From Streptomyces xanthii (lineage in GTDB: Bacteria > Actinomycetota > Actinomycetes > Streptomycetales > Streptomycetaceae): a DNA stretch of 64,000 bases. Numbering within the stretch: the first letter of the stretch is position 1; each line of letters opens with the position of its first letter. Shown here piece by piece: positions 27,850 to 43,805 of this stretch. The position numbers and the translations under genes are program-made. The stretch spans positions 7,378,001 to 7,442,000 of the forward strand of contig NZ_CP061281.1 of the NCBI RefSeq assembly GCF_014621695.1, given 5' to 3'. The notes beneath the pieces were generated by a model that saw nothing but the letters and a program-made list of their open reading frames with translations, had not been told where the DNA came from and did not search any database.

Positions 27850-28668
27850 TCAGTGGGCGACGGGTTCCTCCCGCTCGCCCACGGAGTCGAGGAAGAGCAG
27901 GGCCGTGAGCAGGGCGCCGCTGGAGGCGGGGCAGATCCCGTAGCGGGTCATCTCCTCGTCCAGCGTGTCCAGGAGCCGGGCCCCCTCCGCCGAACCGGCC
28001 CCGCCCGCGGCCAGGGCCGCCGTGGCGTCCTGCTGGATCATGCGCAGCGCCAGCGGCCCCTTCTCGCGCACCACGCGCCCGTCGTCGACGGCGGCGATCA
28101 GCGCCAGCAGCGCGTCCAGCTGCGCGGTCTCCTCCGGGACGCCCCGGGCGCGGGCCGCGCGGATCGAGGTCAGAGCGTCCTCGACGACGCCGACGGCCAC
28201 CTGTTTGTCCGTGCCGGACATCGCGCGGTAGCTGTCGTGGAAGTGGCCGGACGGCTCGATCAGCTCGTCGAGCCCGAGGGCGATGCGGCAGGCCTGGCCG
28301 GGGCTCGTGGCGCCCTGCGCGTACGCCGCCGAGAGCAGGCACAGCAGCCGGGCGGCGACGTCCAGGCCGTTGAGGGACGCCACGTACGGCACCCGCTCCT
28401 GCGCGAGGCGGCACGCGGCGGCCAGCCGGTCCAGGTCGGGACCGGCGCCCGCGGCCGCGTGGAAGGCGCCGTGCAGTCCGACGCCCGCGTCGATGAGCGA
28501 AGAGAACACCGAGTTCGCGGGCAGCCGGGCCGTGCGGCAGTCCGGGAGGCCCGGCTTCGGCGTCAGGAACACCTCGCGGGTGAACGCCGCCACGGCGAGA
28601 TCCGCGACGTCGTCCGCGCGAGCGCCGAAGGGCAGACCGGTCGTACGGGGGGAAGGGGTGTCGAGCAT
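27850..28668 (-). CDS. divergent CitG/MdcB-family (triphosphoribosyl-dephospho-CoA synthase-like) protein
   Basis: A 272-residue protein resembling the CitG family, which makes the 2'-(5''-triphosphoribosyl)-3'-dephospho-CoA prosthetic group precursor from ATP and dephospho-CoA. Recognisable parts are LTPKPGLPDCRTA near residue 42 (family KPGLVD motif) and the C-terminal helix set ending LDTLDEEMTRYGICPASSGALLTALLFLD, aligned with the usual ELxxxxLSPGGSADLLA. The family HxDM segment and the PGGSAD loop are substituted, and no citrate or malonate lyase/decarboxylase genes are nearby. The true reaction is therefore unknown. ATG 28668 has an AGGAAG site. It follows the FCD-GntR and amidohydrolase genes on the same strand, beyond a hairpin. 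Confidence 0.65.
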   Translation of the reverse strand: MLDTPSPRTTGLPFGARADDVADLAVAAFTREVFLTPKPGLPDCRTARLPANSVFSSLIDAGVGLHGAFHAAAGAGPDLDRLAAACRLAQERVPYVASLNGLDVAARLLCLLSAAYAQGATSPGQACRIALGLDELIEPSGHFHDSYRAMSGTDKQVAVGVVEDALTSIRAARARGVPEETAQLDALLALIAAVDDGRVVREKGPLALRMIQQDATAALAAGGAGSAEGARLLDTLDEEMTRYGICPASSGALLTALLFLDSVGEREEPVAH

Positions 28669-28799
28669 GAGCGAGCACTTCCTGACGAGCGGCACCTTGA
28701 AGAAGCGGTCGTGCTCCCGGCGCGCTCAGGCACCGTCACGCGGCACCGGGACCCCCAGGTTCTGCCCGCCCCACCGGCGCGCGGAATCGGGACCAAGGT

Positions 28800-28840
28800 C
28801 CCGGGGTGCGGGTCCGAGTGGCCCGGACCCGCACCCCGGG
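28800..28840. terminator. 17-bp perfect hairpin between the GntR and CitG-like genes
   Basis: The left arm from 28800 and the right arm ending at 28840 pair over 17 bases without mismatch (CCGGGGTGCGGGTCCG core) around a 7-base loop. It follows the stop of the FCD-GntR gene by 28 bp, so it should terminate the amidohydrolase-GntR transcript before the CitG-like gene. No T-run is present, as is common in streptomycetes. Confidence 0.75.
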
Positions 28841-28867
28841 GACCGGCTGCCCCTCCCGCGCACCGGC

Positions 28868-29590
28868 TCACCTGGCAGGCAATACCCCCTCCAGGGCTTC
28901 CAGCGTGGGCTCCCGGCGGATGTCGATGTGCGCGTACGAGAGCGCCTCGGCCAGTTGCGCCTTGCCCGCGTACACCGCCGTGCAGATCCGCTTGTGCTCC
29001 TCGCAGTGCAGGCGGGGGCCCACATCCGTCGAGGTGAGGCGGAACAGCCAGTGCATCAGGCCGAGCGAGGGCTGCAGCGAGGCCTGCAGGAGGCGGTTGC
29101 CGGTCATGGTGATGATCTCGGCGTGGAACGCGGTGTTCGCGGCGGCGATGTCCGCCGGTGAGTTGCGCCGCGTCGCGTCCTCGGCCTCGTCCATGATCCG
29201 TTGCAGCGCGGGGTGCTCGTAGCCCTGCGCGCTGCGCTCCGCCGCCCGGCCCGCCGCGAACACCTCGAGGCTGAGCCGCAGGTCGAACAGCTCGTTCACG
29301 TCGCGCAGCGTCAGCCGGCGCACCGTGGCCCCGCGCCGCGGCGACGTCACCACGAGCCCCTCCTGCGCGAGCCGCAGCAACGCCTCGCGGACCGGGATCC
29401 GGGAGATGCCCAGCGTCTCGGAAAGTTCCCGCTCGCGCAGCCGGCCGCCCTGCGGATAGGCGCCCGAGTGGATCCCGGCCCGGATGAAGGCCTCGGCCCG
29501 GTCCACGTGGGACGCCGCGCCCGGCCCGCCCCGGCGGGGGGCGGGAGCGGCGTCCGGGGCCTCGGCGAGGGCCCCGGCGACGGCGGTCAC
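28868..29590 (-). CDS. GntR-family regulator, FCD subgroup
   Basis: A 240-residue FadR-type regulator. The N-terminal winged helix is DRAEAFIRAGIHSGAYPQGGRLRERELSETLGISRIPVREALLRLAQEGLVVTSPRRGATV. The all-helical FCD ligand domain carries metal-binding positions (N-T-A-F-HAEI, H-in-GLMHW, EEHKRI). Proteins of this group repress catabolic and uptake operons and respond to organic acids. The GTG overlaps the stop of the amidohydrolase gene (GTGA). Likely targets are the GGTATACC-type sites in the 31060-31421 divergent region. Confidence 0.93.
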   Translation of the reverse strand: MTAVAGALAEAPDAAPAPRRGGPGAASHVDRAEAFIRAGIHSGAYPQGGRLRERELSETLGISRIPVREALLRLAQEGLVVTSPRRGATVRRLTLRDVNELFDLRLSLEVFAAGRAAERSAQGYEHPALQRIMDEAEDATRRNSPADIAAANTAFHAEIITMTGNRLLQASLQPSLGLMHWLFRLTSTDVGPRLHCEEHKRICTAVYAGKAQLAEALSYAHIDIRREPTLEALEGVLPAR

Positions 29591-31059
29591 GACCGGTCCC
29601 GGAACGGCGGGAACGTCGGCGGGAACAGCGTGTCGGGGTCACGGCCGAGCAGGTCGCGCTCGGCGTACGCCGCCCGCATCGTGTCGAACAGGCGCTGAGC
29701 CTCCTTCTGGAGGCCGGCGAGGTCGACACCGGGCAGCTCGCGGTCGACCAGCACCGGCCGCCCCGCGACGACGGACTGGGTCGCCTGCCGCGCCGTGCCG
29801 TTGAGGAGGAACGTGCGGACCGGGTCGTCCAGGACGCCGTCGCGGATGTCGCCGAGGTCGAACGCGACGAGGTCGGCCTGGGCGCCGGGCTCGAGGCGGC
29901 CCAGGTCGGAGCGGCCGAGAGCGCGGGCGCCGCCGAGCGTGGCCGCCTCCACGTACTGCTCCACCGGCGCCGCGTCCAGCCGCCCGTCGACGATCTTGGC
30001 GAGGTGCACGCCGGCGTCCATGCCGCGGATCAGGTCCGGGGGGAAGGAGTCGGTGCCGAGGCAGAGGTTGACGCCGGCCTCGCGATAGGCGCGGAAGGAG
30101 TGCAGGGCCTCCCCGTAGCGCATGGACGTCTGCGGGCAGTGGATGACGGAGGCGCCGGAGCGGACGAGCGTGTCCAGGTCGCCGCGGTCCTCGCCGAACA
30201 GGGTGGGGTGGCGGTCGATGACCACGGAGTGCGGGATGAGCAGCCGGGTCTCGAACAGGCCGCTCTCCTCGATGAGTTGAAGCGGCGTCATACCGTGCCG
30301 GCGCTGGGTGATCTCGCGCTCCGTGGTGCCCTGCAGGGCGTGCAGGCGGACCAGGACGTCACGGCTGCGGGCGGTCTCCGCGGTCGCGCGCAGCAGTTCC
30401 GTGGAGAGCGTCTCGATGCGGCAGGGGAGCAGCACGCCGGTCAGCAGCGGGTCGTCCAGCTTCGCGAGGTGGTCGAGGAAGCGGACGGCGTGGGCGAGGC
30501 CGGCCCGGCCCAGTTCCTCGCGGAAGGCCACGTCGCGGCCGCCGTCGGCCGTCGCGACGTTGACCCCCGAGCGGTAGGCGGGGCCGAGGTAGCCGCGCAG
30601 CCCGATCCGGCGCGAGGTCTCGGCCATGGCGACGAGTTCGTCGTAGGGCTCGGCCCAGGAGCTGTGCACCTCGGAGGCGATCGGCATGTAGGTGGTGATG
30701 CCGTGCAGGGCGAGCTGCGCGAGGGCGTACTCGCGGACCGTGGCCCGCTCCTCGGGCGTGAAGACGTCACGGCGCCGGTGGTCGAAGTAGTCCTGGGACC
30801 ACTGGAGTCCGCGTCCGTGGTCGGGGCTGTGCCATGAGTCGATGACGAGGTGGTCGATGTCGGTGAGGGCGTCCAGGTCGATGAGACCCGGCATGACGAG
30901 GGTGTCGCCGAGGTCGCGGTCGACGTCGACCGGGCCGTCGAAGCGCGGGCCGACGTAGACGATGACGTCGTCCTCCCACACCACCTCGCCGTCCCGCAGA
31001 AGAGCGTGCCCACCGTCCTGGTGGGCGAGTACGTGACGGGCGCGCCAGCGCGTGCGCAT
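29587..31059 (-). CDS. TrzA/AtzA-type amidohydrolase with altered first metal motif
   Basis: A 490-residue amidohydrolase of the chlorohydrolase/deaminase group (TrzA, AtzA, guanine deaminase relatives), which hydrolyse C-N or C-Cl bonds on nitrogen rings. Metal or catalytic residues H240 (RLHALQG), H277 (IPHSVV), H307 (IHCPQTSMRYGEA) and D337 (LGTDS) are visible. The usual N-terminal HxH after PGLI is replaced by DLDALTDIDH (61-70), so at least one metal ligand differs. The enzyme may use another metal set or be a variant subfamily. ATG 31059 has an AGGAGG site. It is divergent from the ABC importer operon. Confidence 0.9.
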   Translation of the reverse strand: MRTRWRARHVLAHQDGGHALLRDGEVVWEDDVIVYVGPRFDGPVDVDRDLGDTLVMPGLIDLDALTDIDHLVIDSWHSPDHGRGLQWSQDYFDHRRRDVFTPEERATVREYALAQLALHGITTYMPIASEVHSSWAEPYDELVAMAETSRRIGLRGYLGPAYRSGVNVATADGGRDVAFREELGRAGLAHAVRFLDHLAKLDDPLLTGVLLPCRIETLSTELLRATAETARSRDVLVRLHALQGTTEREITQRRHGMTPLQLIEESGLFETRLLIPHSVVIDRHPTLFGEDRGDLDTLVRSGASVIHCPQTSMRYGEALHSFRAYREAGVNLCLGTDSFPPDLIRGMDAGVHLAKIVDGRLDAAPVEQYVEAATLGGARALGRSDLGRLEPGAQADLVAFDLGDIRDGVLDDPVRTFLLNGTARQATQSVVAGRPVLVDRELPGVDLAGLQKEAQRLFDTMRAAYAERDLLGRDPDTLFPPTFPPFRDRS

Positions 31060-31100
31060 GGGACCTCCTGAGGAACGTCGGAGGTCGACAGCCTAGAAAC

Positions 31101-31110
31101 TGGCATACCA
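31101..31110. promoter_or_regulatory. candidate FCD-GntR half of a dispersed operator (TGGCATACCA)
   Basis: TGGCATACCA, read on the minus strand within TTTTGGTATGCCAG, lies 42 bp upstream of the amidohydrolase start. It matches the TTGGTATACC site at 31374-31383 except for one base. FCD-GntR proteins bind short TGGT-x-ACCA palindromes, so the neighbouring regulator is the natural candidate. Confidence 0.5.
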
Positions 31111-31223
31111 AAAGGGAAGTTGTTCGGGGACTTCTCTTCCGGAGGGGTCTTCGAGGGGGTCCCCGGTCTCAAATGGTGAGGCGCCGAAAAAGAATTTCCG
31201 GCGATCGATCAAGTGTCTCGATG

Positions 31224-31247
31224 GCATTTACAGGTACCTGTAAATGC
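31224..31247. promoter_or_regulatory. 24-bp perfect palindrome in the divergent promoter region
   Basis: The half-site GCATTTACAGGT (31224-31235) is followed directly by its exact complement (31236-31247), with no spacer. It lies 165 bp upstream of the amidohydrolase start and 175 bp upstream of the permease GTG, in a gap of about 360 bp (31060-31421) that is unusually AT-rich. A 24-bp uninterrupted palindrome is unlikely by chance. It is probably a dimer-binding operator rather than a terminator, since it is far from either gene end. Confidence 0.7.
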
Positions 31248-31373
31248 GCGTCCACCTGGACTTATGCGAGTCCTACAGTCGCAGGTCGGAACGGCTGTGT
31301 GGTCCGGGTAAGGGCTCCGGCGGCACTTCGGATGTTTCGGCGTCCGACGGGGCTCTGGTGGGCGGACCGGTTC

Positions 31374-31383
31374 TTGGTATACC
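31374..31383. promoter_or_regulatory. candidate FCD-GntR operator (TTGGTATACC)
   Basis: TTGGTATACC contains the 8-bp palindrome GGTATACC (31376-31383), 39 bp upstream of the importer start, and resembles the site at 31101. With the two sites and the central palindrome, the 362-bp gap between the divergent arms appears fully regulatory. No open frame in it has coding character. Confidence 0.55.
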
Positions 31384-31421
31384 GTCCGGCCATTCCTGCC
31401 CCCGAGCACGGAGGAACCGAC

Positions 31422-32498
31422 GTGTCGGATCCGCAAGTGTCGCCTCGTCGGACGCCCCGCGCCAGCACGCCGGAGCCCGCCGACGGACAGGTGGCCACCC
31501 TGCCCCCACCCCTTGAGAAGGCCGCCGCGGCCCCGTCCGCGGAGCCGGCCGCCGCCCGGTCCCTCCTGGCCACCGCCTGGCTGCGCATCCGGCGCAGCCG
31601 CATCGCCGTCGGCGCGCTGATCGTCGTGGCCCTGATCCTGCTCTTCGCGATCCTGGCCCCGCTGCTCACGCACCTCGAGGGCCAGGACCCGTACACCTCG
31701 CTGACCGGGCCCGACTACCTCGACGAGTTCGACACCCCGGGCCTGCCGCTCGAGTACTACCGGTACCCGTCCACCGAGCACTGGCTCGGCCTCGAACCGG
31801 GCCTGGGCCGCGACATCTTCGCGCGCATGGCCTACGGAGCCCGGATCTCGCTGATCATCGCCCTGCTGTCGACCGCCGTCTCGGTCGTCCTCGGCACCGT
31901 GATCGGCGCGGCGGCCGGCTACTTCGGCGGCAAGGTCGACATGGTCATCAGCCGGATCATGGACCTCTTCCTCGCCTTCCCGCACCTGCTGCTCGTCCTG
32001 TCGCTCACCCCGATCATGCAGTCCCGCCTCGGCGGCACCGCACTGGACCAGGGCAGTCTGCTGCCGGTCGCCTCACTGGTGATCATCCTCGGCTTCTTCG
32101 GCTGGGCCTACCTCGCCCGCGTCGTGCGCGGCCAGGTGCTGTCCATCCGCGAGCAGGAGTTCGTCGAGGCCGCCCGCGCCTACGGCGCTTCGCGCCGCAG
32201 CATCATCTTCCGGCAGATCATCCCCAACGTGATGGGCGTCGTCCTCGTCTACGCGACCATGCTCATCCCCACCAACATCACCGCGGAAGCCGCCCTTTCC
32301 TTCCTCGGTGTCGGCGTCAAGGACCCCACGCCCTCGTGGGGCCAGATGCTCAACGCCGCCCAGTCCGGCAACTGGTACCTGTCCGACCCGTGGTTCCTCG
32401 CGGTCCCCGCCGGCGCCCTCGTCATCACGGTCCTGGCCTTCAACCTCCTCGGCGACGCGGTCCGCGACGCCCTGGACCCCAAGTCCTCCCGCAACTGA
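31422..32498 (+). CDS. dipeptide/oligopeptide-type ABC permease (OppC-like)
   Basis: A 358-residue permease of the peptide/nickel/opine importer family. A disordered ~60-residue cytoplasmic N-terminus is followed by the first membrane segment (IAVGALIVVALILLFAILAPLL), then five more. The permease loop EFVEAARAYGASRRSIIFRQIIPN is intact. The GTG at 31422 has a GAGGAA site. It is the first gene of a five-gene importer and amidohydrolase operon (31422-38513). Having OppC ahead of the binding protein and OppB is a less common order. The imported compound is probably not a peptide, given the amidohydrolases on both sides. Confidence 0.94.
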   Translation: MSDPQVSPRRTPRASTPEPADGQVATLPPPLEKAAAAPSAEPAAARSLLATAWLRIRRSRIAVGALIVVALILLFAILAPLLTHLEGQDPYTSLTGPDYLDEFDTPGLPLEYYRYPSTEHWLGLEPGLGRDIFARMAYGARISLIIALLSTAVSVVLGTVIGAAAGYFGGKVDMVISRIMDLFLAFPHLLLVLSLTPIMQSRLGGTALDQGSLLPVASLVIILGFFGWAYLARVVRGQVLSIREQEFVEAARAYGASRRSIIFRQIIPNVMGVVLVYATMLIPTNITAEAALSFLGVGVKDPTPSWGQMLNAAQSGNWYLSDPWFLAVPAGALVITVLAFNLLGDAVRDALDPKSSRN

Positions 32499-32544
32499 AC
32501 CCCCGCTGGAACACACCGCTCCTCACCCTCTTCAAGGAGACGCA

Positions 32545-34263
32545 GTGACTCGACGTACAGCAGCCGCGATCGCGATCGTCCTCAGCAGCGCGATGGCCCT
32601 CACCGCGTGCAGCGGCAGCAAGCCGGCCCCCGGCTCGGGCTCCCGCGCGAACGCCGACGCCTTCGACCCCGTCCAGGTCGGCAAGGGCTTCGACACCAAG
32701 GGCGGCAACGTCAACGTCCTGATGTCCGCGGACTTCCAGACCCTGGACCCGGGCAACAGCAACTACGTGCAGACCGCCAACGTCGGCCAGCTCTACTACC
32801 GCACCCTCGTCATGGCCAAGGAGACCGCCGGGCAGCCGCCCACCATGGTCCCCGACCTCGCCACCGACCTGGGCAAGGCCTCCAAGGACGGCCTCACCTG
32901 GACGTACACCCTGAAGAAGGGCCTGAAGTTCGAGGACGGCAAGCCGATCACGTCCAAGGACATCAAGTACGGCGTCGAGCGCACCTACGCCCGTGACGTC
33001 TACACCCAGGCGCCGCAGGAGCTGAACGCCGCGCTGACCGACGACACGTACAAGGGCCCCTACAAGGGCGGCGACTTCAAGGGCATCGACACCCCGGACG
33101 ACCGCACCATCGTCTTCCACCTGAAGCAGCCCTTCGCCGAGTTCCCCGCCCTGGTCTCCCGCTCCAACACGGCGCCGGTGCCCAAGTCGAAGGACACCAA
33201 GCTCGACTACACCAACCACCCGGTCTCCTCGGGCCCGTACAAGATCAAGTCGTACGAGCGCGGGCGCACCATGAAGCTGGTCCGCAACGACCAGTGGGAC
33301 GCGGCGACCGACCCCAACCGGCCCGCCCTGCCCGACACGTTCACCTTCAGCCTCTCCACGGCGCAGGCGACCATCAGCCAGCAGCTGCTCGCCGACTCCG
33401 ACCCGACGGCGATCACCCTCGACAGCCAGGGCGGCCTCCAGGCCTCCGACGCCTCGAAGCTGAACCAGCCCGACGTGAAGAAGCGCACCGCCGCCGGCCT
33501 CCTCGGCTGCACCGACGTGCTGAACCTCAACACCGAGACCATCAAGGACCCGCAGGTCCGCAAGGCCATCGCGATAGCCATCGACCGCAAGGCGATCCAG
33601 GTCCAGTACGGCGGCAACCGCTTCGGCCAGCTGACCCAGTCGTACATCAACGACGCGCAGCGCGGCTACGTCGAGCAGCACACCGCCCTCGACCCGGCCG
33701 GCAAGCCGAACCCCGAGGAGGCCAAGAAGCTCCTCAAGGGCAAGGACTTCCCGAAGAAGCTCGTGTACGGCTACGCCGACGCCACCCCGCGCTACAAGAG
33801 CATGGGCAACACGCTCCAGCAGAACCTGAAGGCCATCGGCATCGACCTCCAGCTGCGGCCCATCCCGGCGGCGAACTACTACACGATCCTCGCCGGTGAG
33901 CAGATGCCCGACATCGCGCGCAGCGGCTGGTGCGGTGGCGCCGACAGCGGTTCGGTCCGCACCACGATCGACCCCAACATCGGCCCGAGCATCGACGGCA
34001 AGACCTACGGGTTCTCCAACATCCCGCGCTACTACGACAAGAAGCTCTCCAAGGAGCTGTACGAGCTGCGCGGCGCCAACGGCACCAGCGAGGAGCTCGG
34101 CAAGAAGTGGGCCGGCCTCTTCGACAAGATCATGCAGGACTACCCGCTGGTCCCGCTGACCCGCTCCTTCACCAACAGCGTCGTCGGTTCCAAGATCCGC
34201 GGTGCGCAGGTCGGCTACTTCTTCGGCTCGATCGACCTGTCGACCGTCGGCGTCGAGAAGTGA
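32545..34263 (+). CDS. SBP family 5 substrate-binding lipoprotein
   Basis: A 572-residue extracellular solute-binding protein (DppA/OppA family). The lipoprotein signal is AAAIAIVLSSAMALTACSG, with the lipobox cysteine at about residue 22. Family marks include TLDPGNSNYVQ, LKKGLKFEDGKPITSKDIKYGVER and KAIAIAIDRKAI. GTG 32545 follows an AAGGAGA site. It binds the imported compound outside the membrane and passes it to the two permeases. The family also handles opines, nickel, heme and nitrogen heterocycles, so the ligand is open. Confidence 0.94.
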   Translation: MTRRTAAAIAIVLSSAMALTACSGSKPAPGSGSRANADAFDPVQVGKGFDTKGGNVNVLMSADFQTLDPGNSNYVQTANVGQLYYRTLVMAKETAGQPPTMVPDLATDLGKASKDGLTWTYTLKKGLKFEDGKPITSKDIKYGVERTYARDVYTQAPQELNAALTDDTYKGPYKGGDFKGIDTPDDRTIVFHLKQPFAEFPALVSRSNTAPVPKSKDTKLDYTNHPVSSGPYKIKSYERGRTMKLVRNDQWDAATDPNRPALPDTFTFSLSTAQATISQQLLADSDPTAITLDSQGGLQASDASKLNQPDVKKRTAAGLLGCTDVLNLNTETIKDPQVRKAIAIAIDRKAIQVQYGGNRFGQLTQSYINDAQRGYVEQHTALDPAGKPNPEEAKKLLKGKDFPKKLVYGYADATPRYKSMGNTLQQNLKAIGIDLQLRPIPAANYYTILAGEQMPDIARSGWCGGADSGSVRTTIDPNIGPSIDGKTYGFSNIPRYYDKKLSKELYELRGANGTSEELGKKWAGLFDKIMQDYPLVPLTRSFTNSVVGSKIRGAQVGYFFGSIDLSTVGVEK

Positions 34264-34298
34264 CGAACTGACGAACCGACGAGCGAACTGACGAGACC

Positions 34299-35300
34299 AT
34301 GACCAGATTCCTGCTGCGGCGCTTCGCCGCGATGATCGCCCTGCTGATCGTCATCAGTTTCGTGACCTTCAGCCTGTTCCAGCTCGGTCCGGCGGACCCG
34401 GCCGCGGCGGCCTGCGGCCAGGAGTGCACCCCTGAGCGTGTCGCCCAGGCCCGTGTCGCCCTCGGGATGGACCAGCCGTTCCTGTCCCAGTACGTCGACT
34501 ACATGACGGGCCTGCTGCACGGCCGGTGGGTCGGTGCCCCCGGCAGCCAGACCCTGTGCGAATGGCCCTGCCTCGGCAAGTCGTTCCAGACCAACGAGAA
34601 CGTCACCGCGATCATCGCGCGAGCCCTGCCGTACACCCTGTCCGTGGCCGTCGGCGCGATCGTCCTGTGGACCGTCGTCGGCGTCGGCCTCGGCATGCTC
34701 GCCGCGCTGCGCAAGGGGAAGTTCACCGACAAGGTCGTCGTCGGTGCCGCCTCCGTCGGCGTGTCCCTGCCCATCCCGGTGACCGGCCTGCTGCTCCTGC
34801 TGTTCTTCGTCAGCACGCTGCACGTCCTGCCGTTCACCACCAACGAGATCACCTCGCCGTTCGGGCCCGCCGGGCCCGGCGGCTGGGTCCTCAACTACCT
34901 GCTGCCGTGGGTGGCGCTCGCCGTCCTGTTCAGCGCCCAGTACATCCGCGTCACCCGCAGCAACATGCTGGAGACCTTCGGCGAGGACTTCATGCGCACC
35001 GCCCGCGCCAAGGGCCTGTCCCGGCCCAAGATCGTCTTCCGGCACGGCGCCCGGGCCGGCATCACGCCCGTCGTCACCATGCTCGGCCTCGACATCGGGC
35101 TGCTGCTCGGCGGCGCCGTCCTGACCGAGCAGATCTTCTCCGTCCCCGGCATCGGCTTCACCGCGGTGCACGCCGCCCAGTCCGGCGACCTGCCCGTGAC
35201 CATGGCCATCACCATGATGGCCGCCTTCTTCATCATCGTCGCCAACGTCGTGGTCGACGCCGCCTACGCGGTCATCGACCCGCGAGTGAGGGTCAACTGA
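34299..35300 (+). CDS. dipeptide/oligopeptide-type ABC permease (OppB-like)
   Basis: A 333-residue permease. The N-terminus (TRFLLRRFAAMIALLIVISFVTFSLFQLGPADPAAA) is the typical OppB start, and the coupling loop is FGEDFMRTARAKGLSRPKIVFRHGAR. An unusual cysteine-containing external loop (ACGQECTPERV, later TLCEWPCLG) is seen in some actinobacterial members. The leader just upstream repeats CGAACTGACGA at 34264-34274 and 34284-34294 and offers only a weak ribosome binding site. It forms the channel with the OppC-like subunit. Confidence 0.94.
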   Translation: MTRFLLRRFAAMIALLIVISFVTFSLFQLGPADPAAAACGQECTPERVAQARVALGMDQPFLSQYVDYMTGLLHGRWVGAPGSQTLCEWPCLGKSFQTNENVTAIIARALPYTLSVAVGAIVLWTVVGVGLGMLAALRKGKFTDKVVVGAASVGVSLPIPVTGLLLLLFFVSTLHVLPFTTNEITSPFGPAGPGGWVLNYLLPWVALAVLFSAQYIRVTRSNMLETFGEDFMRTARAKGLSRPKIVFRHGARAGITPVVTMLGLDIGLLLGGAVLTEQIFSVPGIGFTAVHAAQSGDLPVTMAITMMAAFFIIVANVVVDAAYAVIDPRVRVN

Positions 35301-36310: not shown

Positions 36311-37296
36311 CCACGACCCCGCTGCTCCAGGTCACCGACCTGACCAAGCACTTCCCGACCCGTACGAGCGCCTTCCGCTCGGGCGGCGTCGTCAAGGCCG
36401 TCGACAACGTCAGCTTCTCCGTCGGCGCCGGCCAGACCCTCGGCCTGGTGGGGGAGTCCGGCTGCGGCAAGTCCACCACCGGACGCCTCCTGATGCGGCT
36501 GCTCGAACCCACCTCCGGCAGCATCAAGCTCGACGGCCGCGAGATATCCGAGCTGCGCCGCGGCGACCTCCAGGACTACCGCCGGCGCGTCCAGATGGTG
36601 TTCCAGAACCCGTCGTCCTCGCTCAACCCGCGCCAGTCCGTCGGCAGCGCCATCGCCGCGCCGCTGCTCGCCCAGCGCATCAACCCGCCGACCGGCATCA
36701 AGGCCACCGTCCGCGACCTGATGGACCGCGTCGGACTGCGCCCCGACCACTACAACCGCTTCCCGCACGAGTTCTCCGGCGGCCAGAAGCAGCGCGTGGG
36801 CATCGCCCGAGCCCTCGCCCTGGACCCGAAGCTGATCATCTGCGACGAGCCGGTCTCCGCGCTCGACGTGTCCGTGCAGGCCCAGGTCATCAACCTGCTC
36901 GAGGACATCCAGCGCGACACCGGCGTCGCGTACCTGTTCATCGCCCACGACCTGTCCGTCGTCAAGCACTTCGCGCACCGCGTCGCCGTCATGTACCTCG
37001 GCAGGATCATGGAGCACGGCGACACCCGCGAGGTCTTCGACAACCCCCGCCACCCGTACACGCAGGCCCTGCTGTCCGCCGTGCCGCAGGCCGACCCGGA
37101 CGCCGACCGCAGCGGACGCGTCCGCCTCGCCGGCGACCTGCCGAGCCCCGCGAACCCGCCGTCCGGCTGCGTCTTCCGCTCGCGCTGCCCGCTGCGCCTC
37201 ACCCTCGACGAGAAGAGCGCGAGCCGCTGCGCCGACGAGGTGCCGGCCGGCAGCCCCGCCTGCCACCACATCGACATCGACATCGAAGAAAGGTGA
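36307..37296 (+). CDS. ABC transporter ATP-binding protein (OppF/DppF-like)
   Basis: A 329-residue ATPase. Walker A GESGCGKST, Q-loop VFQNPSSSLNPRQS, signature FSGGQKQRVGIARAL, Walker B LIICDEP and switch HDLSVVKHF are all intact. The C-terminal oligopeptide domain has CVFRSRCPLRLTLDEKSASRC. The start overlaps the preceding stop (ATGA), and the stop overlaps the GTG of the amidohydrolase (GTGA). Together with the OppD-like subunit it powers import. This importer therefore has its own ATPases, unlike the sugar system at 2999-6205. Confidence 0.96.
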   Translation: MTTTPLLQVTDLTKHFPTRTSAFRSGGVVKAVDNVSFSVGAGQTLGLVGESGCGKSTTGRLLMRLLEPTSGSIKLDGREISELRRGDLQDYRRRVQMVFQNPSSSLNPRQSVGSAIAAPLLAQRINPPTGIKATVRDLMDRVGLRPDHYNRFPHEFSGGQKQRVGIARALALDPKLIICDEPVSALDVSVQAQVINLLEDIQRDTGVAYLFIAHDLSVVKHFAHRVAVMYLGRIMEHGDTREVFDNPRHPYTQALLSAVPQADPDADRSGRVRLAGDLPSPANPPSGCVFRSRCPLRLTLDEKSASRCADEVPAGSPACHHIDIDIEER

Positions 37297-38513
37297 CATC
37301 CGTGCTGATCCGTGACGTCCGCCCCTGGGGCGGCGAGCGCAGCGACGTCGAACTGTCCGGCACCCGCATCGCCGCGATCCGCCCCCACGACCCGGCGGCC
37401 GCCTCGGCCGGCGAGGTCGTCGAGGGCCGCGGCCGGCTCCTGCTGCCCTCCTTCAGCGATGTTCACGTCCACCTGGACTCCACCCGCATCGGCCTGCCGT
37501 TCCGCCCGCACACCGGCGGCCCCGGCGTGTGGACGATGACGATGAACGACCGCGAGAACTGGCGCACGGCGGAGGTCCCGCTGGACGAGCGCGTCGCCGG
37601 CACCCTGGAGCGCATGATCGCCCGCGGCACCACCCGGGTGCGCTCGTACGCGCAGGTCGACGTGGACTGCAAGCTGGAGAAGTTCGACGCCGTCGTGGCC
37701 GCGAAGGAGAAGTTCGCGGGCCGCGCCGACGTCCAGATCATGACCTTCCCGCAGGCCGGCATCCTGCGGGAGAAGGGCACCGTCGACTACCTGGAGGCCT
37801 CGCTGAAGGCGGGCGCCGACGTCATGGGCGGCATCGACCCCTGCTCCCTGGACAAGGACCCCAAGCAGCACCTCGACATCGTCTTCGGCCTCGCCGAGAA
37901 GTACCAGGTCGAGGTCGACATCCACCTCCACGAGCCCGGCCACCTAGGCGTGTTCTCCACCGACCTCATCCTGGAGCGCACCCGCGCCCTCGGCATGCAG
38001 GGCCAGGTGACCCTCTCCCATGCCTACGAACTCGGCTCGATCAGCGAGTCCGTGAGCCGCCGCCTCATCGACGAGTTCGCCGAACTCGACGTCGCCATGG
38101 CCACCGTGGCGCCCTCGGTCAGCAACCAGCTGTCCCTCGCCGACCTCACCGAGGCGGGCGTCCGCGTCGGCCTCGGCGAGGACGGCCAGCGCGACTACTG
38201 GAGCCCGTACGGCAACTGCGACATGCTCGACCGCACCTGGCAGCTCGCCTTCACCAACAACTACCGGCGCGACGACCTCATCGAGATGTCGCTGGCCGTC
38301 GCCACCCTCGGCGGCGCCTCGATCATGGACCACGACGTGCCCCGCCTGAAGGGGATCGCCGACCGGCCCGGACTCGCGGCGGGCGACCGCGCCGACCTCC
38401 TCCTGGTCGACGGCGAGACCCCGAGCAGCGCCGTCATGGACCGCGGCACCGACCGCACCGTCCTGCACGACGGCGTCGTCGTCGCCGACCAGTTGGTGGT
38501 CACCGGGGTCTGA
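37293..38513 (+). CDS. cytosine deaminase-type amidohydrolase
   Basis: A 406-residue amidohydrolase of the CodA/N-isopropylammelide group. Metal ligands H58 and H60 (SDVHVHLD), H211/H213 (DIHLHEPGHLG), H243 (SHAYELG) and D297 (GEDGQRDYWSPYGNCDML) follow the cytosine-deaminase pattern. It hydrolyses an amino or amide group on a pyrimidine-, triazine- or hydantoin-like ring. GTG 37293 overlaps the ATPase stop. A second in-frame GTG at 37302 has a better-spaced AAAGG site, so the true start could be 9 bases later. Being co-transcribed with the importer, it probably acts first on the imported compound. The TrzA-type enzyme would act on another step. Confidence 0.9.
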   Translation: MTSVLIRDVRPWGGERSDVELSGTRIAAIRPHDPAAASAGEVVEGRGRLLLPSFSDVHVHLDSTRIGLPFRPHTGGPGVWTMTMNDRENWRTAEVPLDERVAGTLERMIARGTTRVRSYAQVDVDCKLEKFDAVVAAKEKFAGRADVQIMTFPQAGILREKGTVDYLEASLKAGADVMGGIDPCSLDKDPKQHLDIVFGLAEKYQVEVDIHLHEPGHLGVFSTDLILERTRALGMQGQVTLSHAYELGSISESVSRRLIDEFAELDVAMATVAPSVSNQLSLADLTEAGVRVGLGEDGQRDYWSPYGNCDMLDRTWQLAFTNNYRRDDLIEMSLAVATLGGASIMDHDVPRLKGIADRPGLAAGDRADLLLVDGETPSSAVMDRGTDRTVLHDGVVVADQLVVTGV

Positions 38514-38529
38514 GAAGGGTCCGACATCT

Positions 38530-38939: not shown

Positions 38940-38958
38940 GAAAAGGTGGTAGCAGGGC

Positions 38959-39195
38959 ATGGCCGAGCACACACCGAACTCCCGCACCGCACCCCTGGAC
39001 CCGCGGCACCGCGACCGCGTCTTCCGGCGGGTCGTCCTGCGGACCGTCCCCTTCATCACGATCGTCTACGTCATCGCCTGGATGGACCGCGTCAACGTCG
39101 GCTTCGCGAAGCTGACCATGCTGGACGACCTGTCCTGGAGCGAGGCCGTCTACGGCGCCGGCGCCGGCATCTTCTTTCTCAGCTGCCGGGATTGA
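38959..39195 (+). pseudogene. N-terminal fragment of an MFS (anion:cation symporter family) transporter
   Basis: 78 residues remain of a transporter that should be over 400 long. The start is normal (RDRVFRRVVLRTVPFITIVYVIAWMDRVNVGFAKLTM, then YGAGAGIFFL), as in the ACS family of organic-acid symporters. The match stops after FFL at about 39178, then SCRD and a TGA. The TnpB element begins just after this stop. Restoring the site by removing the element does not restore the frame, so a deletion joining this fragment to another gene preceded or accompanied the insertion. Confidence 0.85.
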
Positions 39196-39360
39196 TTCGC
39201 AGTGCTCCGGACTTCAGGCCGGGGGTGAAGCGAGTTTGGTGGTGACGACGCGGAGCGTCGCGGTGGCTTTCCGGCGGAGCCGGACTTGCTGCGTGAGGGT
39301 GACATGTCGCTCGCGTGTTCCCGGCGACGGCACGGTTTCGCGTTGCTTAGTGTGATCGTC

Positions 39361-40584
39361 ATGCAACTCCGGTACACCTTCAGGCTGTACCCGAACACCG
39401 CCCAGCAGGCCGCGTTAGCCAGGGCGTTCGGGTGCGCCCGTGTCGTGTTCAACGACGCGGTGCGCGCCCGCGAGGAAGCCCGAGAGGCCGGGCGGGCGTT
39501 TCCGACGGCCGGTGACCTGTCGAAGAAGCTGATCACGCAGGCGAAGCGGACGGCGGAGCGGGCGTGGTTGAGTGAGGTGTCCGCGGTGGTGCTCCAGCAG
39601 TCCCTGCGCGACGCCGAGACCGCCTACCGCAACTTCTTCGCCTCCCTCAAAGGCACCCGCAGGGGTCCGAGACAGGGTGCGCCGCGTTTCAAGTCCCGCA
39701 AGGATCACCGGCAGTCGATCCGGTTCACCGCCAACGCACGCTGGAGCATCGATCACGCGGGCCGGCTGAACCTGCCGAAGATCGGCGCGGTGACGGTGAA
39801 GTGGTCCCGCACCCTGCCCGCCACCCCGTCCTCGGTCACCGTGGTCAAGGATGCGGCGGGAAGGTTCTTGGCCTCGTTCGTCATCGACACCGACCCCGCT
39901 GCCGACCAGGCCCGGATGCCCGAGACCGAGGCCACCATCGGTATCGACCTCGGCCTCACCCACTTCGCGGTCCTGTCCACCGGCGAGAAGATCGACTCCC
40001 CGCGGTTCCTTCGCCGCGCGGAGAAGAAACTGAAGAAGACCCAGCGGGAACTGTCCCGCAAACAGAAGGGATCGAAGAACCGGGCCAAGGCCCGCCGGAA
40101 GGTCGCCCGCGCCCACGCAGTCGTCACCGACGCACGCCGTGAGTTCCACCACCAGCTCTCCACCCGCCTGATCCGCGAGAACCAAGCGATCGCCGTGGAG
40201 GACCTGTCGGTAGTGGGGTTGGCACGCACCAGGCTGGCCAAATCCGTCCACGACGCCGGATGGGCATCGTTCCTCGGCATGCTGAAATACAAGGCCGAGC
40301 GGTACGGCCGCACCCTGATCAAGGTCGGCCGCTTCGAACCCACCAGCCAGACCTGCTCCACCTGCGGCACCAAAGATGGACCCAAACCCCTCAAGGTGCG
40401 GGAATGGACCTGCAGTGCCTGCGGCACCCGCCACGACCGGGACATCAACGCCGCACTCAACATCAGACAGGCCGCCGGACTGGCGGCATCGGCCTGCGGA
40501 GCGCAGGTAAGACCAGAACCCGTTCTGGCGCAGCGCGAAGAAACAGGAAGCCACGGATTCCCGACCGGAAACCGTGCCGCATAG
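39361..40584 (+). CDS. tnpB: TnpB RNA-guided nuclease, catalytic residues intact
   Basis: A 407-residue TnpB, the ancestor-type protein of Cas12 nucleases. It binds an omega RNA from the element's right end and cuts DNA next to a short motif. The N-terminal OrfB_IS605 region (LRYTFRLYPNTAQQAALARAFGCARVVFND) is followed by the RuvC-like domain with D196 (IGIDLGLTHFAV), E280 (IAVEDLSVVGL) and D361 (RDINAALNI), and the zinc ribbon C332/C335/C351/C354. All catalytic residues are present. ATG 39361 gives the canonical MQLRYTF start, and the open frame upstream belongs to the left end. Confidence 0.93.
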   Translation: MQLRYTFRLYPNTAQQAALARAFGCARVVFNDAVRAREEAREAGRAFPTAGDLSKKLITQAKRTAERAWLSEVSAVVLQQSLRDAETAYRNFFASLKGTRRGPRQGAPRFKSRKDHRQSIRFTANARWSIDHAGRLNLPKIGAVTVKWSRTLPATPSSVTVVKDAAGRFLASFVIDTDPAADQARMPETEATIGIDLGLTHFAVLSTGEKIDSPRFLRRAEKKLKKTQRELSRKQKGSKNRAKARRKVARAHAVVTDARREFHHQLSTRLIRENQAIAVEDLSVVGLARTRLAKSVHDAGWASFLGMLKYKAERYGRTLIKVGRFEPTSQTCSTCGTKDGPKPLKVREWTCSACGTRHDRDINAALNIRQAAGLAASACGAQVRPEPVLAQREETGSHGFPTGNRAA

Positions 40585-40647: not shown

Positions 40648-40830
40648 CTCATCTCCAAGGCCCGTATTGCCGACGCCAACCGCGCGCTGAGCGTCCTCGC
40701 CTCCGGAAGGATGAACCCGCGCGCCGTCTAGACCGCCCTGCACTACGGCGCCGGCGCCAAGTTCGTCCACTTCGGCGCGCACTGCACCCACTTCATGGCC
40801 CCGGACCGCCTGCTCGACCTCGGCGAGTAA
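40648..40830 (+). pseudogene. C-terminal remnant of an unrecognised gene, interrupted by a stop
   Basis: The frame reads LISKARIADANRALSVLASGR, then MNPRAV, a TAG at 40729-40731, then TALHYGAGAKFVHFGAHCTHF and ends DRLLDLGE at TAA 40828. Codon use is of coding type on both sides of the TAG. Across the excised element the frame continues back into SAAGID, so the deletion junction with the MFS fragment lies near 39180. I cannot assign the family. It is not part of the MFS protein. Confidence 0.65.
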
Positions 40831-40844
40831 CCCGGGCGCCGCAC

Positions 40845-40872
40845 GGGGAGGCCGGGCCCGCCCGGCCTCCCC
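40845..40872 (+). terminator. terminator hairpin after the gene remnant
   Basis: GGGGAGGCCGGG pairs perfectly with CCCGGCCTCCCC over 12 bp with a 4-base loop, 15 bp after the TAA of the remnant. It was probably the terminator of the original intact gene and operon. Together with the element's right end it accounts for most of the gene-free stretch 40585-40953. Confidence 0.8.
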
Positions 40873-40953
40873 GCCGACCCCGCCGTCATCATGGGACGCT
40901 CACGTCACCCCACGCCCGAGCCCGCTCGGGCGCCCAACGAAAGGGCCCCTCCG

Positions 40954-41661
40954 TTGCCCCCGCACGCGCCGCACACCGGAACCCGGACCGTCCTGCTCGT
41001 CAACCCCAACACCAACCGGGGCACGACCTCGATGATGGCCGAGCTGGCCCGGAACCACCTGGCCCCCGCGGGAATCACGGTGGAGAGCCGCACCGCCGGG
41101 CAGGGCCCCTCGATGATCACCGACCCGATCACCCTCAAGGAGTCCGCCCAGCACGTCGTCGACACCGTCCGCGACCGGCTGGCCGACACCGGCGCCCCGC
41201 CCGTCGCCGCCGTGATCGTCGCCGCCATCGGCGACCCCGCCCGCGACCGCCTCGCCGACGAGATCGACGTCCCCGTCATCGGCATCGGCCAGGCCTCCGT
41301 CCACGCGGCCGCCGCCGGGGGCCGCGCCTTCGGCATGGCGACCAGCACCCCGCTGCTCGTCGACTCGCTCACCGAACTCGTCGCCCGGCACGGCCACGCC
41401 GCCGCCTTCACCGGCGTCCGCCTCACCCCCTCCGACCCGCTCCTGCTCGCCGCCTCCGCCGACCAGCAGTACGAGGAGCTCGCCGGCGCCGTCCGCGCCT
41501 GCGTCGACCGGGACGGCGCCGAGGCCGTGATCATCGCGGGCGGCCCGCTCAGCGACGCCGCCCGCCGGCTCGCCGCGCTCGGCCTCGTGGACATCGTCGA
41601 GCCCGTCCCCAGCGCCGCCGCCCTCGTCCTCGACACCCTGAATGCGCCCGCAGGCGGCTGA
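40954..41661 (+). CDS. Asp/Glu/hydantoin racemase-family protein lacking the catalytic cysteines
   Basis: A 235-residue protein with the family pattern LLVNPNTNRGTTSMM at the N-terminus, VIVAAIGDPARDRLADEIDVPVIGIGQASVHAAAA in the middle and VIIAGGPLSDAARRLAALG near the end. In active hydantoin, aspartate and allantoin racemases a Cys precedes the GDP/DDTG turn and another sits in the CxGM/CAG turn. Here those positions are Ala/Ile (91-92) and Gly (196-197), so two-base racemisation is unlikely. It may bind or act on a related cyclic amide. I chose TTG 40954, which has AAAGGG 8 bases upstream. An ATG at 40891 lacks a ribosome binding site. Confidence 0.8.
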   Translation: MPPHAPHTGTRTVLLVNPNTNRGTTSMMAELARNHLAPAGITVESRTAGQGPSMITDPITLKESAQHVVDTVRDRLADTGAPPVAAVIVAAIGDPARDRLADEIDVPVIGIGQASVHAAAAGGRAFGMATSTPLLVDSLTELVARHGHAAAFTGVRLTPSDPLLLAASADQQYEELAGAVRACVDRDGAEAVIIAGGPLSDAARRLAALGLVDIVEPVPSAAALVLDTLNAPAGG

Positions 41662-41757
41662 ACCGAGCCCGCACCGCGCCCCCCGGCCTGGCGAAGACAG
41701 GCCCGTCAGGCCCAGACTGGCACCCCCGGTCCGTCGAACGAGTGTGAGCAGAGACCC

Positions 41758-42426
41758 GTGACGACTTCGTCCTCATCGTCCTCGAAGCTGTACCGCAACA
41801 AGAAGCCGCTGCGCGACATCGTCCGCGAACACCTGCGCAACAGCATCTACGACGGCACGCTGCCGCCCGGCACCCGCCTCGTCGAGCAGGAACTCGCCCA
41901 GCAGTTCAAGGTGTCCCGGCTGCCGGTCCGCGAGGCGCTGCGCATCCTGCACCACGAGGGCCTCGTCGAGCACCTGCCCACCCGCGGCGTGGTCGTGCGC
42001 ACCCTCGACCGCCGCCAGGTCTCCGAGCTGTACGACCTGCGCGAGGCCCTCGAGGTCCTCGCCGCGCGGCAGGCCGCCGAGCGCGTCGCCGAGGGCGCGC
42101 CGACCCGGCTCTCGGCCGCCACCGAACGGGCCGGGGACGCGGCGGGCGCCGGGGACGCCTCCGCCGTGCACGACGCGAACTCCAGCCTCCACGAGGAGAT
42201 CACCGCCCTCGCGGGCAACAAGCTGCTGGCCGAGACCCTGGAGCCGATCGTCGGCCGCGTCGACTGGCTGCGCCGCAAGGTCGAGGACTTCGGCATGATC
42301 CAGGCCGAGCACGAGGCCCTGGCCGCCGCCATCGTCGCCGGCGACCCCGAGGCCGCCGCCACCGCGGCCCGCGACCATGTACGCGCCTCGCGCGAGCGCA
42401 CCCTCAAGGGCCTCTTCGACAGCTGA
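41758..42426 (+). CDS. GntR-family regulator, FCD subgroup (second)
   Basis: A 222-residue FadR-type regulator. The winged helix (LRDIVREHLRNSIYDGTLPPGTRLVEQELAQQFKVSRLPVREALRILHHEGLVEHLPTRGVVV) is followed by an FCD domain with the usual His/Asn positions (HDANSSLHEEI, EHEALAAAI, AARDHV). It lies 96 bp after the racemase-like gene and 134 bp before the flavin oxidoreductase, and could control both and the decayed transporter upstream. GTG 41758 is the only start that leaves the whole DNA-binding domain. Its ribosome binding site is weak. Confidence 0.92.
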   Translation: MTTSSSSSSKLYRNKKPLRDIVREHLRNSIYDGTLPPGTRLVEQELAQQFKVSRLPVREALRILHHEGLVEHLPTRGVVVRTLDRRQVSELYDLREALEVLAARQAAERVAEGAPTRLSAATERAGDAAGAGDASAVHDANSSLHEEITALAGNKLLAETLEPIVGRVDWLRRKVEDFGMIQAEHEALAAAIVAGDPEAAATAARDHVRASRERTLKGLFDS

Positions 42427-42479
42427 CGGGAGCGGCCGGCGGCGTCGGCGGTCCCGGCCGCCGGGACACGACGATGGAA

Positions 42480-42517
42480 AAGTGCGGCGCGGCGTGCTGT
42501 CATGCCGTGCCGCACTT
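42480..42517 (+). terminator. terminator hairpin after the second GntR gene
   Basis: Seventeen bases starting AAGTGCGGC pair with the strand ending GCCGCACTT, with two G-U pairs and a CTGT loop. It begins 53 bp after the stop. The arms end with an AA/TT pair, as in simple intrinsic terminators. Confidence 0.7.
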
Positions 42518-42560
42518 CGGCTCCGTCCAACTCGCCTGACGCGTCAGGAGGTTGACCCGC

Positions 42561-43805
42561 ATGCCCGACCCGAGCCCCCGCCCGGTGCCCGACCCGCTCG
42601 CGCCCGCCCGCCTGGGCCCCCTCACCCTGCGCAACCGCGTCGTCAAGGCCGCCACCTTCGAAGGCATGACCCCCGACGCGCTCGTCACCGACGACCTCGT
42701 CGAGTTCCACCGCCGCCACGCCGCGGGCGGCATCGCGATGACGACCGTCGCCTACTGCGCCGTCGCCCCGGAGGGCCGCACCGAACGCCGCCAGATCTGG
42801 ATGCGCCCGGAAGCCGTCCCCGGACTGCGGCGCCTCACCGACGCCGTGCACGCCGAGGGCGCCGCAGCCTGCGCCCAGCTCGGCCACGCAGGACCCGTCG
42901 CCGACGCCTCCTCCACCGGGCTGCCCGCCCTCGCGCCGCAGAGCCGGTTCAGCCCCGTCAGCCTGCGCCGCACCCGGGCGGCGACCGCCGAGGACATCGT
43001 CCGGGTCACCCGGGCCCACGCGGACGCCGCCCGGCTCGCCGTCGAGTCCGGATTCGACGCCGTCGAACTCCACTTCGGCCACAACTACCTGGCCAGCGCC
43101 TTCCTCAGCCCCAAGCTGAACCGCCGCACCGACCGCTACGGCGGCAGCCTCGCCCACCGCGCCGAGGTCACCCGCGGCATCGCCCGCGCCGTCCGCGACG
43201 CCGTCGGCGACCGCATCGCCATCACCGCCAAACTCAACATGAAGGACGGAGTGCCCGGCGGCCTCGGCGTCGACGAGTCCCTCCAGGTCGCCCGCTGGCT
43301 CCAGGACGACGGCGGCCTCGACGCCCTCCAGCTCACCGCCGGCAGCTCCCTGCTCAACCCGATGTACCTCTTCCGCGGCGACGCCCCGCTGAAGGAGTTC
43401 GCCGCCCAGTTCCCGGCGCCGCAGCGGCTCGGCATCCGCCTCTTCGGGGACCGCTTTCTGCGCACGTACCCGTACGAGGACGCGTACCTCCTGGAACACG
43501 CGCGCCGCTTCCGGGCGGCGCTCGACCTCCCGCTCACCCTGCTCGGCGGCATCACGAGCCTCGACACCATGGAACGGGCCATGAAGGAGGGCTTCCAGTT
43601 CGTGGCCATGGCCCGCGCCCTGCTGCGCGAACCCGACCTCGTCGAACGCATCGCCCGCGACCGCACGACCCCCTCCCTGTGCATCCACTGCAACCGCTGC
43701 ATGCCCACGATCTACAGCGGAACCCACTGCCCGGAGAAGCCGGAGAAGCCGGAGAAGCCGGAGAAGCCGGAGAAGTCGGAGAAGACGGAGAAGCAGGGGC
43801 GGTGA
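42561..43805 (+). CDS. NADH:flavin oxidoreductase (old yellow enzyme family)
   Basis: A 414-residue FMN enzyme of the OYE family, which reduces activated C=C bonds. Typical parts are the N-terminal LGPLTLRNRVVKAATFEGM, the LHFGHNYLASAFLSPKLNRRTDRYGGS signature, the AITAKLN strand and the phosphate site LGGITSLDTME...VAMARALLREPDL. A C-terminal cysteine group CIHCNRCMPTIYSGTHC recalls the Fe-S binding site of dienoyl-CoA reductase-type members, although the second reductase domain is missing. The last 22 residues are a Pro-Glu-Lys repeat. ATG 42561 has a CAGGAGG site. In context it may reduce a ring double bond. Confidence 0.93.
   Translation: MPDPSPRPVPDPLAPARLGPLTLRNRVVKAATFEGMTPDALVTDDLVEFHRRHAAGGIAMTTVAYCAVAPEGRTERRQIWMRPEAVPGLRRLTDAVHAEGAAACAQLGHAGPVADASSTGLPALAPQSRFSPVSLRRTRAATAEDIVRVTRAHADAARLAVESGFDAVELHFGHNYLASAFLSPKLNRRTDRYGGSLAHRAEVTRGIARAVRDAVGDRIAITAKLNMKDGVPGGLGVDESLQVARWLQDDGGLDALQLTAGSSLLNPMYLFRGDAPLKEFAAQFPAPQRLGIRLFGDRFLRTYPYEDAYLLEHARRFRAALDLPLTLLGGITSLDTMERAMKEGFQFVAMARALLREPDLVERIARDRTTPSLCIHCNRCMPTIYSGTHCPEKPEKPEKPEKPEKSEKTEKQGR
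43731..43793 (+). repeat. seven tandem 9-bp repeats encoding a (PEK)n tail
   Basis: Five exact copies of CCGGAGAAG and two variants (first base T or A, giving SEK and TEK) run in frame to three codons before the stop of the flavin oxidoreductase. The pattern is that of replication slippage, so copy number probably varies between strains. The tail would be an unstructured charged extension. Confidence 0.95.

Follow-up and report, generated by a model that had tools for sequence, protein, structure and literature searches.

Among the described enzymes nearest to those considered here are the amidohydrolases of triazine systems. The excerpted text of the AtzC account gives His60, His62, His217 and Asp303 as metal ligands and Gln160, His219, His249 and Trp309 as further residues (PMC4577212); for AtzA, the corresponding excerpt lists His66, His68, His243, His276 and Asp327 as metal ligands, and proposes AtzA Glu246 and TrzN Glu241 as catalytic participants (PMC4356373). 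We analysed a 64,000-nucleotide window of Streptomyces xanthii (NZ_CP061281.1, 7378001-7442000; all coordinates below are positions in this window), in which two amidohydrolases of these kinds, AH1 and AH2, are encoded together with a dipeptide-type ATP-binding cassette (ABC) importer at 28868-38513. This AH1-importer-AH2 core is a real conserved module; neither an earlier description of it nor a characterised pathway with its gene set was found in the open-licence literature, in agreement with a preliminary description of the window, which had held that known pathways lack this set. The same description had also counted a CitG-like gene, a racemase-family gene (Race) and an OYE-family gene as parts of ONE locus. 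To judge by gene content across genomes, the locus is instead composite, the conserved unit standing beside neighbours that probably do not belong to it.

All of the genes previously named are present at about the places given for them, as confirmed by open reading frames (ORFs) and Pfam/NCBIfam scores. In the conserved unit, a GntR-type regulator with an FCD domain (GntR1, 28868..29590, minus strand; PF00392 and PF07729) overlaps by four bases the stop of AH1 (29587..31059, minus strand), a TRZ/ATZ (COG0402-like) amidohydrolase, and the two are divergent from a plus-strand arm across a control region at 31060..31421. This arm encodes an OppC-type permease (31422..32498; PF00528, PF12911), whose likely start is a GTG that has a GGAGGA box, inside an ORF listed from 31173, a family 5 solute-binding protein (32545..34263; PF00496, 213.6 bits), an OppB-type permease (34299..35300), OppD-type (35300..36310) and OppF-type (36307..37296) ATPases and AH2 (37293..38513), an AtzC/cytosine-deaminase-type amidohydrolase. 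The importer set, of dipeptide/oligopeptide type, is thus complete, with a binding protein, two permeases and two ATPases; OppC and the binding protein were assigned by Pfam, and OppB, OppD and OppF by their ORFs and annotated relatives in plasmid locus L126. Nine other Streptomyces module loci carry relatives of these last three at 82-89%, 78-88% and 75-85% identity, respectively.

We searched 392 Streptomyces genomes with AH1 and kept the 20, S. xanthii included, in which a relative reaches 44% identity or more, dropping two with fragments only (G086, G275). Ten of the 20, S. xanthii and nine others, have AH1, importer and AH2 in one contiguous run. In five of the nine (G002, G021, G052, G059, G311) AH1 is 77-78% identical to the window protein and a GntR1 relative (68-74%) adjoins it, and in the other four (G098, G307, G379, G160) AH1 is at 57-60% and AH2 at 89-91%, with a different regulator, 36-39% identical to GntR2 of the window, near AH2. 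In two further genomes (G204, G165) AH2 adjoins AH1 without an importer of the window type, a different ABC system being present in G165. The whole unit is also found on an Arthrobacter plasmid (L131) at 49-79% identity, with AH2 at the distal end of the importer operon and a GntR1 relative at 49%. These occurrences bear out the proposal that the importer and the two amidohydrolases belong together.

The pairing of the two amidohydrolases extends beyond the importer. In a second actinobacterial family AH1 (E <= 1e-120) occurs in four of 51 genomes, each time with AH2 no more than 2 kb away, and the four loci yielded no ABC importer gene. A DUF3100 protein is encoded in the second-family loci (a Pfam assignment in L199, a judgement by eye in L197 and L201), an ornithine-cyclodeaminase/mu-crystallin-family gene adjoins the pair in L199 and L202 (Pfam) and in L201 (sequence likeness), and in L199 an NCS1-type permease lies 4 kb from it; literature searches on DUF3100 and on TrzN found nothing on this system. 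Eight plasmid loci were opened through an AH1 match, picked from 368 records, and six of them contain AH2, adjacent to AH1 in L126, L127, L128, L132 and L133 and across the importer in L131; L130, opened through AH2, contains AH1, and L134 has an 8-oxoguanine deaminase only (25%). The six alphaproteobacterial loci among them (L126, L127, L128, L130, L132, L133) are plasmid-borne and of looser order, with AH1 at 38-41%. All six have a dipeptide-type ABC system near AH1-AH2, four (L126, L128, L130, L133) a flavin-reductase-family gene and three (L126, L130, L133) an Asp/Glu racemase.

AH1 itself departs from its family at the active site. It passes the 'chlorohydrolase family' model NF004801 (PRK06151) with 620.6 bits against a cut-off of 416 and shares one sequence family with TrzN/AtzA, 8-oxoguanine deaminase and PRK06151, in which its retained His240, His277 and Asp337 correspond to ligand or catalytic positions. 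Unlike TrzN/AtzA, however, it lacks the HxH of strand 1, where relatives read PG-x-x-N-T-H-x-H and AH1 reads PG-L-I-D-L-D-A-L (D63-A64-L65 in place of HxH), and Gln243, which HMMER aligns with the Glu of 7ww2, replaces the catalytic Glu. The stretch has no His, and a one-residue gap leaves the exact counterpart of the second HxH His uncertain. The changes are constant: an alignment of 14 members from two phyla shows 13 with Asp and one with Asn at position 63, and Leu65 and the Gln throughout; a second alignment has Leu65 and Gln243 in 50 of 50 rows, and among 120 homologues listed, of 1119 found, 119 read DLDAL and one DLNAL. The predicted model has a pLDDT (predicted local distance difference test) of 88.5 and is confident except around residues 71-83. 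Such strong conservation argues for a function under selection, whether as an enzyme of new chemistry, through an Asp-based site or as a partner. With 151.5 bits AH1 falls well below the cut-off of 532 for the 8-oxoguanine-deaminase equivalog, and literature searches on amidohydrolases without HxH found nothing on this system. According to the excerpted source, the 6-chloronicotinate chlorohydrolase Cch2 is a further TRZ/ATZ-type enzyme encoded near ABC genes (PMC3511419). Split or fragmentary AH1 genes were seen in G223, G165, G076, G275 and G086 (loci L099, L107, L109, L114 and L115), which suggests recurrent loss of AH1 or sequence errors.

AH2, by comparison, appears intact. Mapping the AtzC residues onto it by motif, by eye, gives counterparts for every metal ligand named in the AtzC excerpt (H58, H60, H211, D297) and for Gln160, His219, His249 and Trp309 (Q154, H213, H243, W303), and these columns do not vary among the 11 aligned sequences. 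The nearest structure is 6nbo (E 1.4e-80), annotated as an N-isopropylammelide isopropylaminohydrolase, and AH2 scores marginally under the subfamily model NF004636 (PRK05985; 404.4 against 408 bits). It differs from AtzC at Lys65, which is Ser in the four actinobacterial rows and Lys in the other seven, and at Asn304, where 10 of 11 rows have Gly; no triazine gene was noticed around it. From its residues AH2 should be an active metal-dependent aminohydrolase.

The divergent regions between AH1 and OppC were compared in 11 loci (the window, nine Streptomyces and Arthrobacter), each of which carries a TTGGTATACCAA-type palindrome two or three times. Its 9-base form gives 25 sites in the 11 divergent regions (4.1 kb with margins) against 14 in the remaining 268 kb of sequence from these loci, and in the window it is found at 31100 and 31374, within the sites CTGGCATACCAA (31100-31111) and TTGGTATACCGT (31374-31385), with a sole further match at 56271. 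No TTGGTATACCAA-like site lies near the CitG-like gene, Race, GntR2 or OYE in the 64-kb window. What speaks for the sites is that they recur between species; GntR1, probably the local regulator of the module, would bind them and control both arms. Matches of the GntR proteins to phnR models, considered as a possible phosphonate link, are far below cut-off. The same control region has a perfect 22-base palindrome, CATTTACAGGTACCTGTAAATG, at 31225-31246, which is absent from the palindromes listed for the other loci and is possibly a second, different operator.

The gene content, the recurrence of the set, the operator-like sites and the residues lost and retained are observed, and binding by GntR1, the nature of the cargo, the removal of an amine and the part played by AH1 are inferred. 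On balance it is likely that 28868-38513 encodes a catabolic or scavenging module, induced by its substrate, that imports and deaminates a small N-heterocycle or ureide. In such a module the family 5 binding protein and the OppBCDF importer would take up a small nitrogen-rich compound, AH2 would hydrolyse an exocyclic, possibly substituted, amine from the heterocycle or ureide, and AH1, which most of the loci examined encode alongside AH2, would either perform a second, paired step with its non-canonical site (no HxH, Glu to Gln) or serve as a partner of AH2, the arms being controlled by GntR1 at the TTGGTATACCAA-like sites. A nitrogen-rich cyclic substrate had been proposed before, and the NCS1-type permeases, hydantoin-type racemase and annotated allantoinase beside relatives of the module fit it. 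More tentatively, AH1 may be the founder of an amidohydrolase group without the strand-1 HxH, retained across two phyla, its members being either enzymes of a new type (Asp-ligated or metal-free) or dead, obligate heteromer partners of an intact AH2, in an undescribed N-heterocycle or ureide pathway that would also use a Cys-less racemase-fold enzyme of non-racemase chemistry.

Several observations weigh against import and deamination as the role of the module. Eight of the 20 Streptomyces AH1 genomes have no AH2 in the fetched stretch, plasmid AH1 loci L129 and L135 have none nearby, and the plasmid loci were chosen and are no random sample. Two window sites, allowing up to three mismatches, are no more than expected by chance (mean 1.36), loose matches of the TTGGTATACCAA core in the window are likewise at chance level (9 against 6.2 expected), and the pattern was derived from the regions in which it was counted, making the enrichment descriptive. 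The importer is of peptide type and the nearest solved relative of its binding protein is an oligopeptide-binding protein of the clavulanate cluster, so the cargo could be other than a heterocycle. Finally, the genome co-occurrence figures given below ignore kinship among genomes.

The alternative that survives best is that the two amidohydrolases belong to a known ureide or purine route, where they would act on an intermediate in the degradation of 8-oxopurine, allantoin or hydantoin, the racemase-family protein and the flavoenzyme providing further steps. The neighbours of AH1 relatives speak for it: an NCS1 allantoin-permease-like gene, below its equivalog cut-off, adjoins AH1 in G283, an annotated allantoinase AllB adjoins AH1-AH2 in S. 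meliloti, an annotated allantoicase lies about 6 kb off in Defluviimonas, an annotated nucleoside deaminase adjoins the importer in Paroceanicella, and a racemase with both Cys adjoins AH2-AH1 in Defluviimonas and Sulfitobacter and is also present in the Leisingera locus. Against it stand the failure of AH1 at the 8-oxoguanine-deaminase equivalog and the lack of any ureide enzyme of known kind among the scanned window proteins, the remaining window proteins not having been scanned. We regard this route as rather unlikely, and much of what bears on it concerns Race.

Race (40891..41661, plus strand; PF01177, 111.2 bits against 31) is by sequence of the Asp/Glu-racemase family, like the allantoin/hydantoin racemases 3qvk and 5lfd, from which it differs in having lost both catalytic Cys. 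Ala112 and Gly217 stand in their places, and all 21 actinobacterial rows are non-Cys at both positions; both are kept in all three racemases of the alphaproteobacterial operons. Cys-to-Ala mutants of its relative NozR are inactive according to the excerpted report (PMC10156859), and since mutation of the Cys pair abolished activity there, Race is unlikely to be a racemase. A literature search on Cys-less allantoin racemase found nothing on this system. Cousins of Race (42-46%), in which the first Cys is also gone and GGP stands at the second, are sited in a Streptomyces urate locus, where models confirm uricase, OHCU decarboxylase, 8-oxoguanine deaminase (629.8 bits, cut-off 532) and two xanthine permeases (L181), an association that favours the ureide or purine route; the OHCU-decarboxylase cluster is present in 14 of 20 fetched Race loci. 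The Cys-less racemase-fold protein is a regular member of this urate locus (L181 9657-10289; cousins in L177-L192).

In S. xanthii, Race and the adjoining FCD-GntR regulator GntR2 (41758..42426, plus strand) stem from a different module. In G307, far from that genome's own AH module, the order is MFS-MFS-DUF6282-Race (75%)-GntR2 (84%) (L173 4083-11100), and the window is colinear with it, retaining 75 N-terminal codons from a disrupted MFS transporter gene, the first in that order (38959..39183, plus strand, 85% identical to the G307 gene), fragments of the second MFS gene and of the DUF6282 gene, with a stop (40648..40800, plus strand), Race and GntR2. In the gap lies a TnpB gene, an IS200/IS605-type RNA-guided endonuclease (39286..40584, plus strand; NF040570, 350.6 bits, cut-off 100); the window ORF list holds ORFs of at least 150 residues, and a short TnpA beside it would escape that list. 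TnpB and the MFS/DUF6282 remnants had been missed from the preliminary gene list. As read from this colinearity, Race-GntR2 is the surviving end of a damaged MFS-MFS-DUF6282-Race-GntR module, and the view that Race and GntR2 together with OYE make up an intact group downstream in the pathway is rejected, OYE not being conserved as a neighbour. Pfam gives no function for the DUF6282 of the G307 module. As a leftover of a ureide/purine-type module Race-GntR2 may still contribute. Race adjoins AH1 in two of the 19 other Streptomyces AH1 loci (G345 and G370, with AH1 at 53%), and of 25 genomes with Race eight have an AH1 relative, against 19 of 391 overall (S. xanthii excluded), which also speaks for the ureide or purine route. 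Race of at least 60% identity occurs in three of 392 genomes, all three with the module (S. xanthii excluded, p 4.7e-4); six module genomes (G002, G021, G052, G059, G160, G311) have no Race at E <= 1e-15, no match was found in plasmids at E 1e-25, and across the phylum at E 1e-35 the only hit in 296 genomes is S. xanthii itself.

Improbable, in our view, is that the unit imports and inactivates an antibiotic or a peptide-linked nucleoside analogue and has no nutritional role. The dipeptide-type importer would suit such cargo, as would the placing of AH2 in the cytosine-deaminase group and the nearest solved structure of the binding protein, OppA2 of clavulanate biosynthesis (2wok, E 3.7e-56). 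However, the relative in L199 has a nucleobase-type permease nearby in place of the ABC importer, and FCD-GntR control is typical of catabolic genes. To place the neighbours at either end of the locus, the 19 other Streptomyces AH1 loci, with about 9 kb per side where the contig permits, were compared with every window gene.

The CitG-like gene (27850..28695, minus strand, probable ATG start near 28668) resembles the triphosphoribosyl-dephospho-CoA synthases CitG/MdcB in a C-terminal match to PF01874 (70.9 bits, gathering 27, profile positions 183-284 only) and in its predicted fold, where the likeness is weak (3h9p_B, template modelling scores 0.50/0.62, probability 1.00, E 0.31, with nothing at E <= 0.001). 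It differs from them in falling under all four NCBIfam equivalog cut-offs listed (MdcB 75.7 against 282 bits), in its motifs and in the lack of a carrier. The family motifs VDRRGSGAH.DM, TGGVNTHRG, DDTCLLHRGG and SPGGSADLL, taken from the alignment and from no curated source, are replaced in 24 rows of its clade and kept in more distant members, and the close clade has 25 proteins among the matches listed, 21 of them named Streptomyces; the clade is Streptomyces-restricted and motif-depleted. It occurs in four of 392 Streptomyces genomes, none of which has the carrier PF06857 (CitD/MdcC; E. coli control positive). The earlier remark that no citrate or malonate lyase is encoded near this gene fits the absence of PF06857 and of MdcA (PF16957) from the whole genome, a result for which the catalytic subunits of citrate lyase had no search of their own.

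The idea that a CitG-like nucleotide-chemistry step belongs to the pathway is likewise rejected. Not one of the 19 other AH1 loci in Streptomyces has the gene beside it, and it is in none of 10 plasmid loci and in none of six stretches of the second actinobacterial family, so the co-occurrence with the importer and two amidohydrolases that had been proposed as a check is not seen, and no match to AH1, AH2, importer, Race or OYE was found in the loci of its relatives. It has a neighbour of its own: in all six loci of the group above 60% that have downstream DNA (L031, L032, L033, L035, L110, L112) a SpoIIE-type phosphatase gene follows, the domain being confirmed in L032, and in a 53% member a sigma-factor gene takes that place. 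The position of the clade ahead of a SpoIIE-type phosphatase may hint at a signalling link. In G311 the CitG-like gene and the module are both present on separate contigs, one of three CitG-like genomes to share the module (p 0.07). No terminator- or promoter-like site was found around the gene, and as it lies on the GntR1 strand, at least 172 bases downstream, read-through from the AH1 arm is possible. Probably it is a bystander outside the module. A different CitG homologue (30-40%) is found in about a quarter of the Streptomyces genomes (101 of 392; L038-L060). Its common neighbour, present in 19 of the 22 loci that were clustered, encodes some 318 residues with a secretion-type start, judged by eye; MdcA is absent from three tested genomes carrying this homologue.

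OYE, an OYE-family flavoprotein (42552..43805, plus strand; PF00724, 155.2 bits), has relatives (E <= 1e-120) in 19 of 392 Streptomyces genomes, and in 17 further loci, 16 from Streptomyces and one on a Tsukamurella plasmid, neither AH1, AH2, Race nor the CitG-like gene was found near it; the ABC systems in L152 (24-49%) are unrelated, and a regulator there is at 31%. It lies near AH1 in one of the 19 other AH1 loci (G385), with an opposite-strand ORF between. Seven of 18 OYE genomes have an AH1 relative (against 19 of 391 overall, p 4.5e-6, S. xanthii excluded), and one of 18 has the complete module (p 0.35), i.e. no co-occurrence. AH1 genomes are depleted for the ordinary Streptomyces CitG, an unrelated marker (one against 4.9 expected), and clade effects therefore exist; outside the ordinary-CitG group the AH1 associations of Race and OYE persist (p 1.4e-5 and 5.2e-6). 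OYE is an unplaced neighbour that is not conserved beside the module. A single 16-kb pathway embracing the CitG-like step, the racemase-like protein and OYE, for which speak the adjacency of the genes in this genome, the enrichment of AH1 relatives in OYE genomes and the few AH1 loci with Race or OYE, is thus highly improbable given the separate neighbourhoods of the CitG-like gene and OYE, the origin of Race-GntR2 in another module and associations that ignore kinship.

The AH1-importer-AH2 module has implications for the large-scale annotation of amidohydrolases by homology. Names such as 'chlorohydrolase' or '8-oxoguanine deaminase' given to AH1-type proteins are probably wrong, because the metal motif and the catalytic acid are both gone, and the linkage of AH1 to an intact AH2 offers a direct test of the annotation of this group. 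The Cys-less racemase family in the urate locus points to a step there without an assigned enzyme, and the binding protein of the module provides a handle on the soil nutrient that the module would import.

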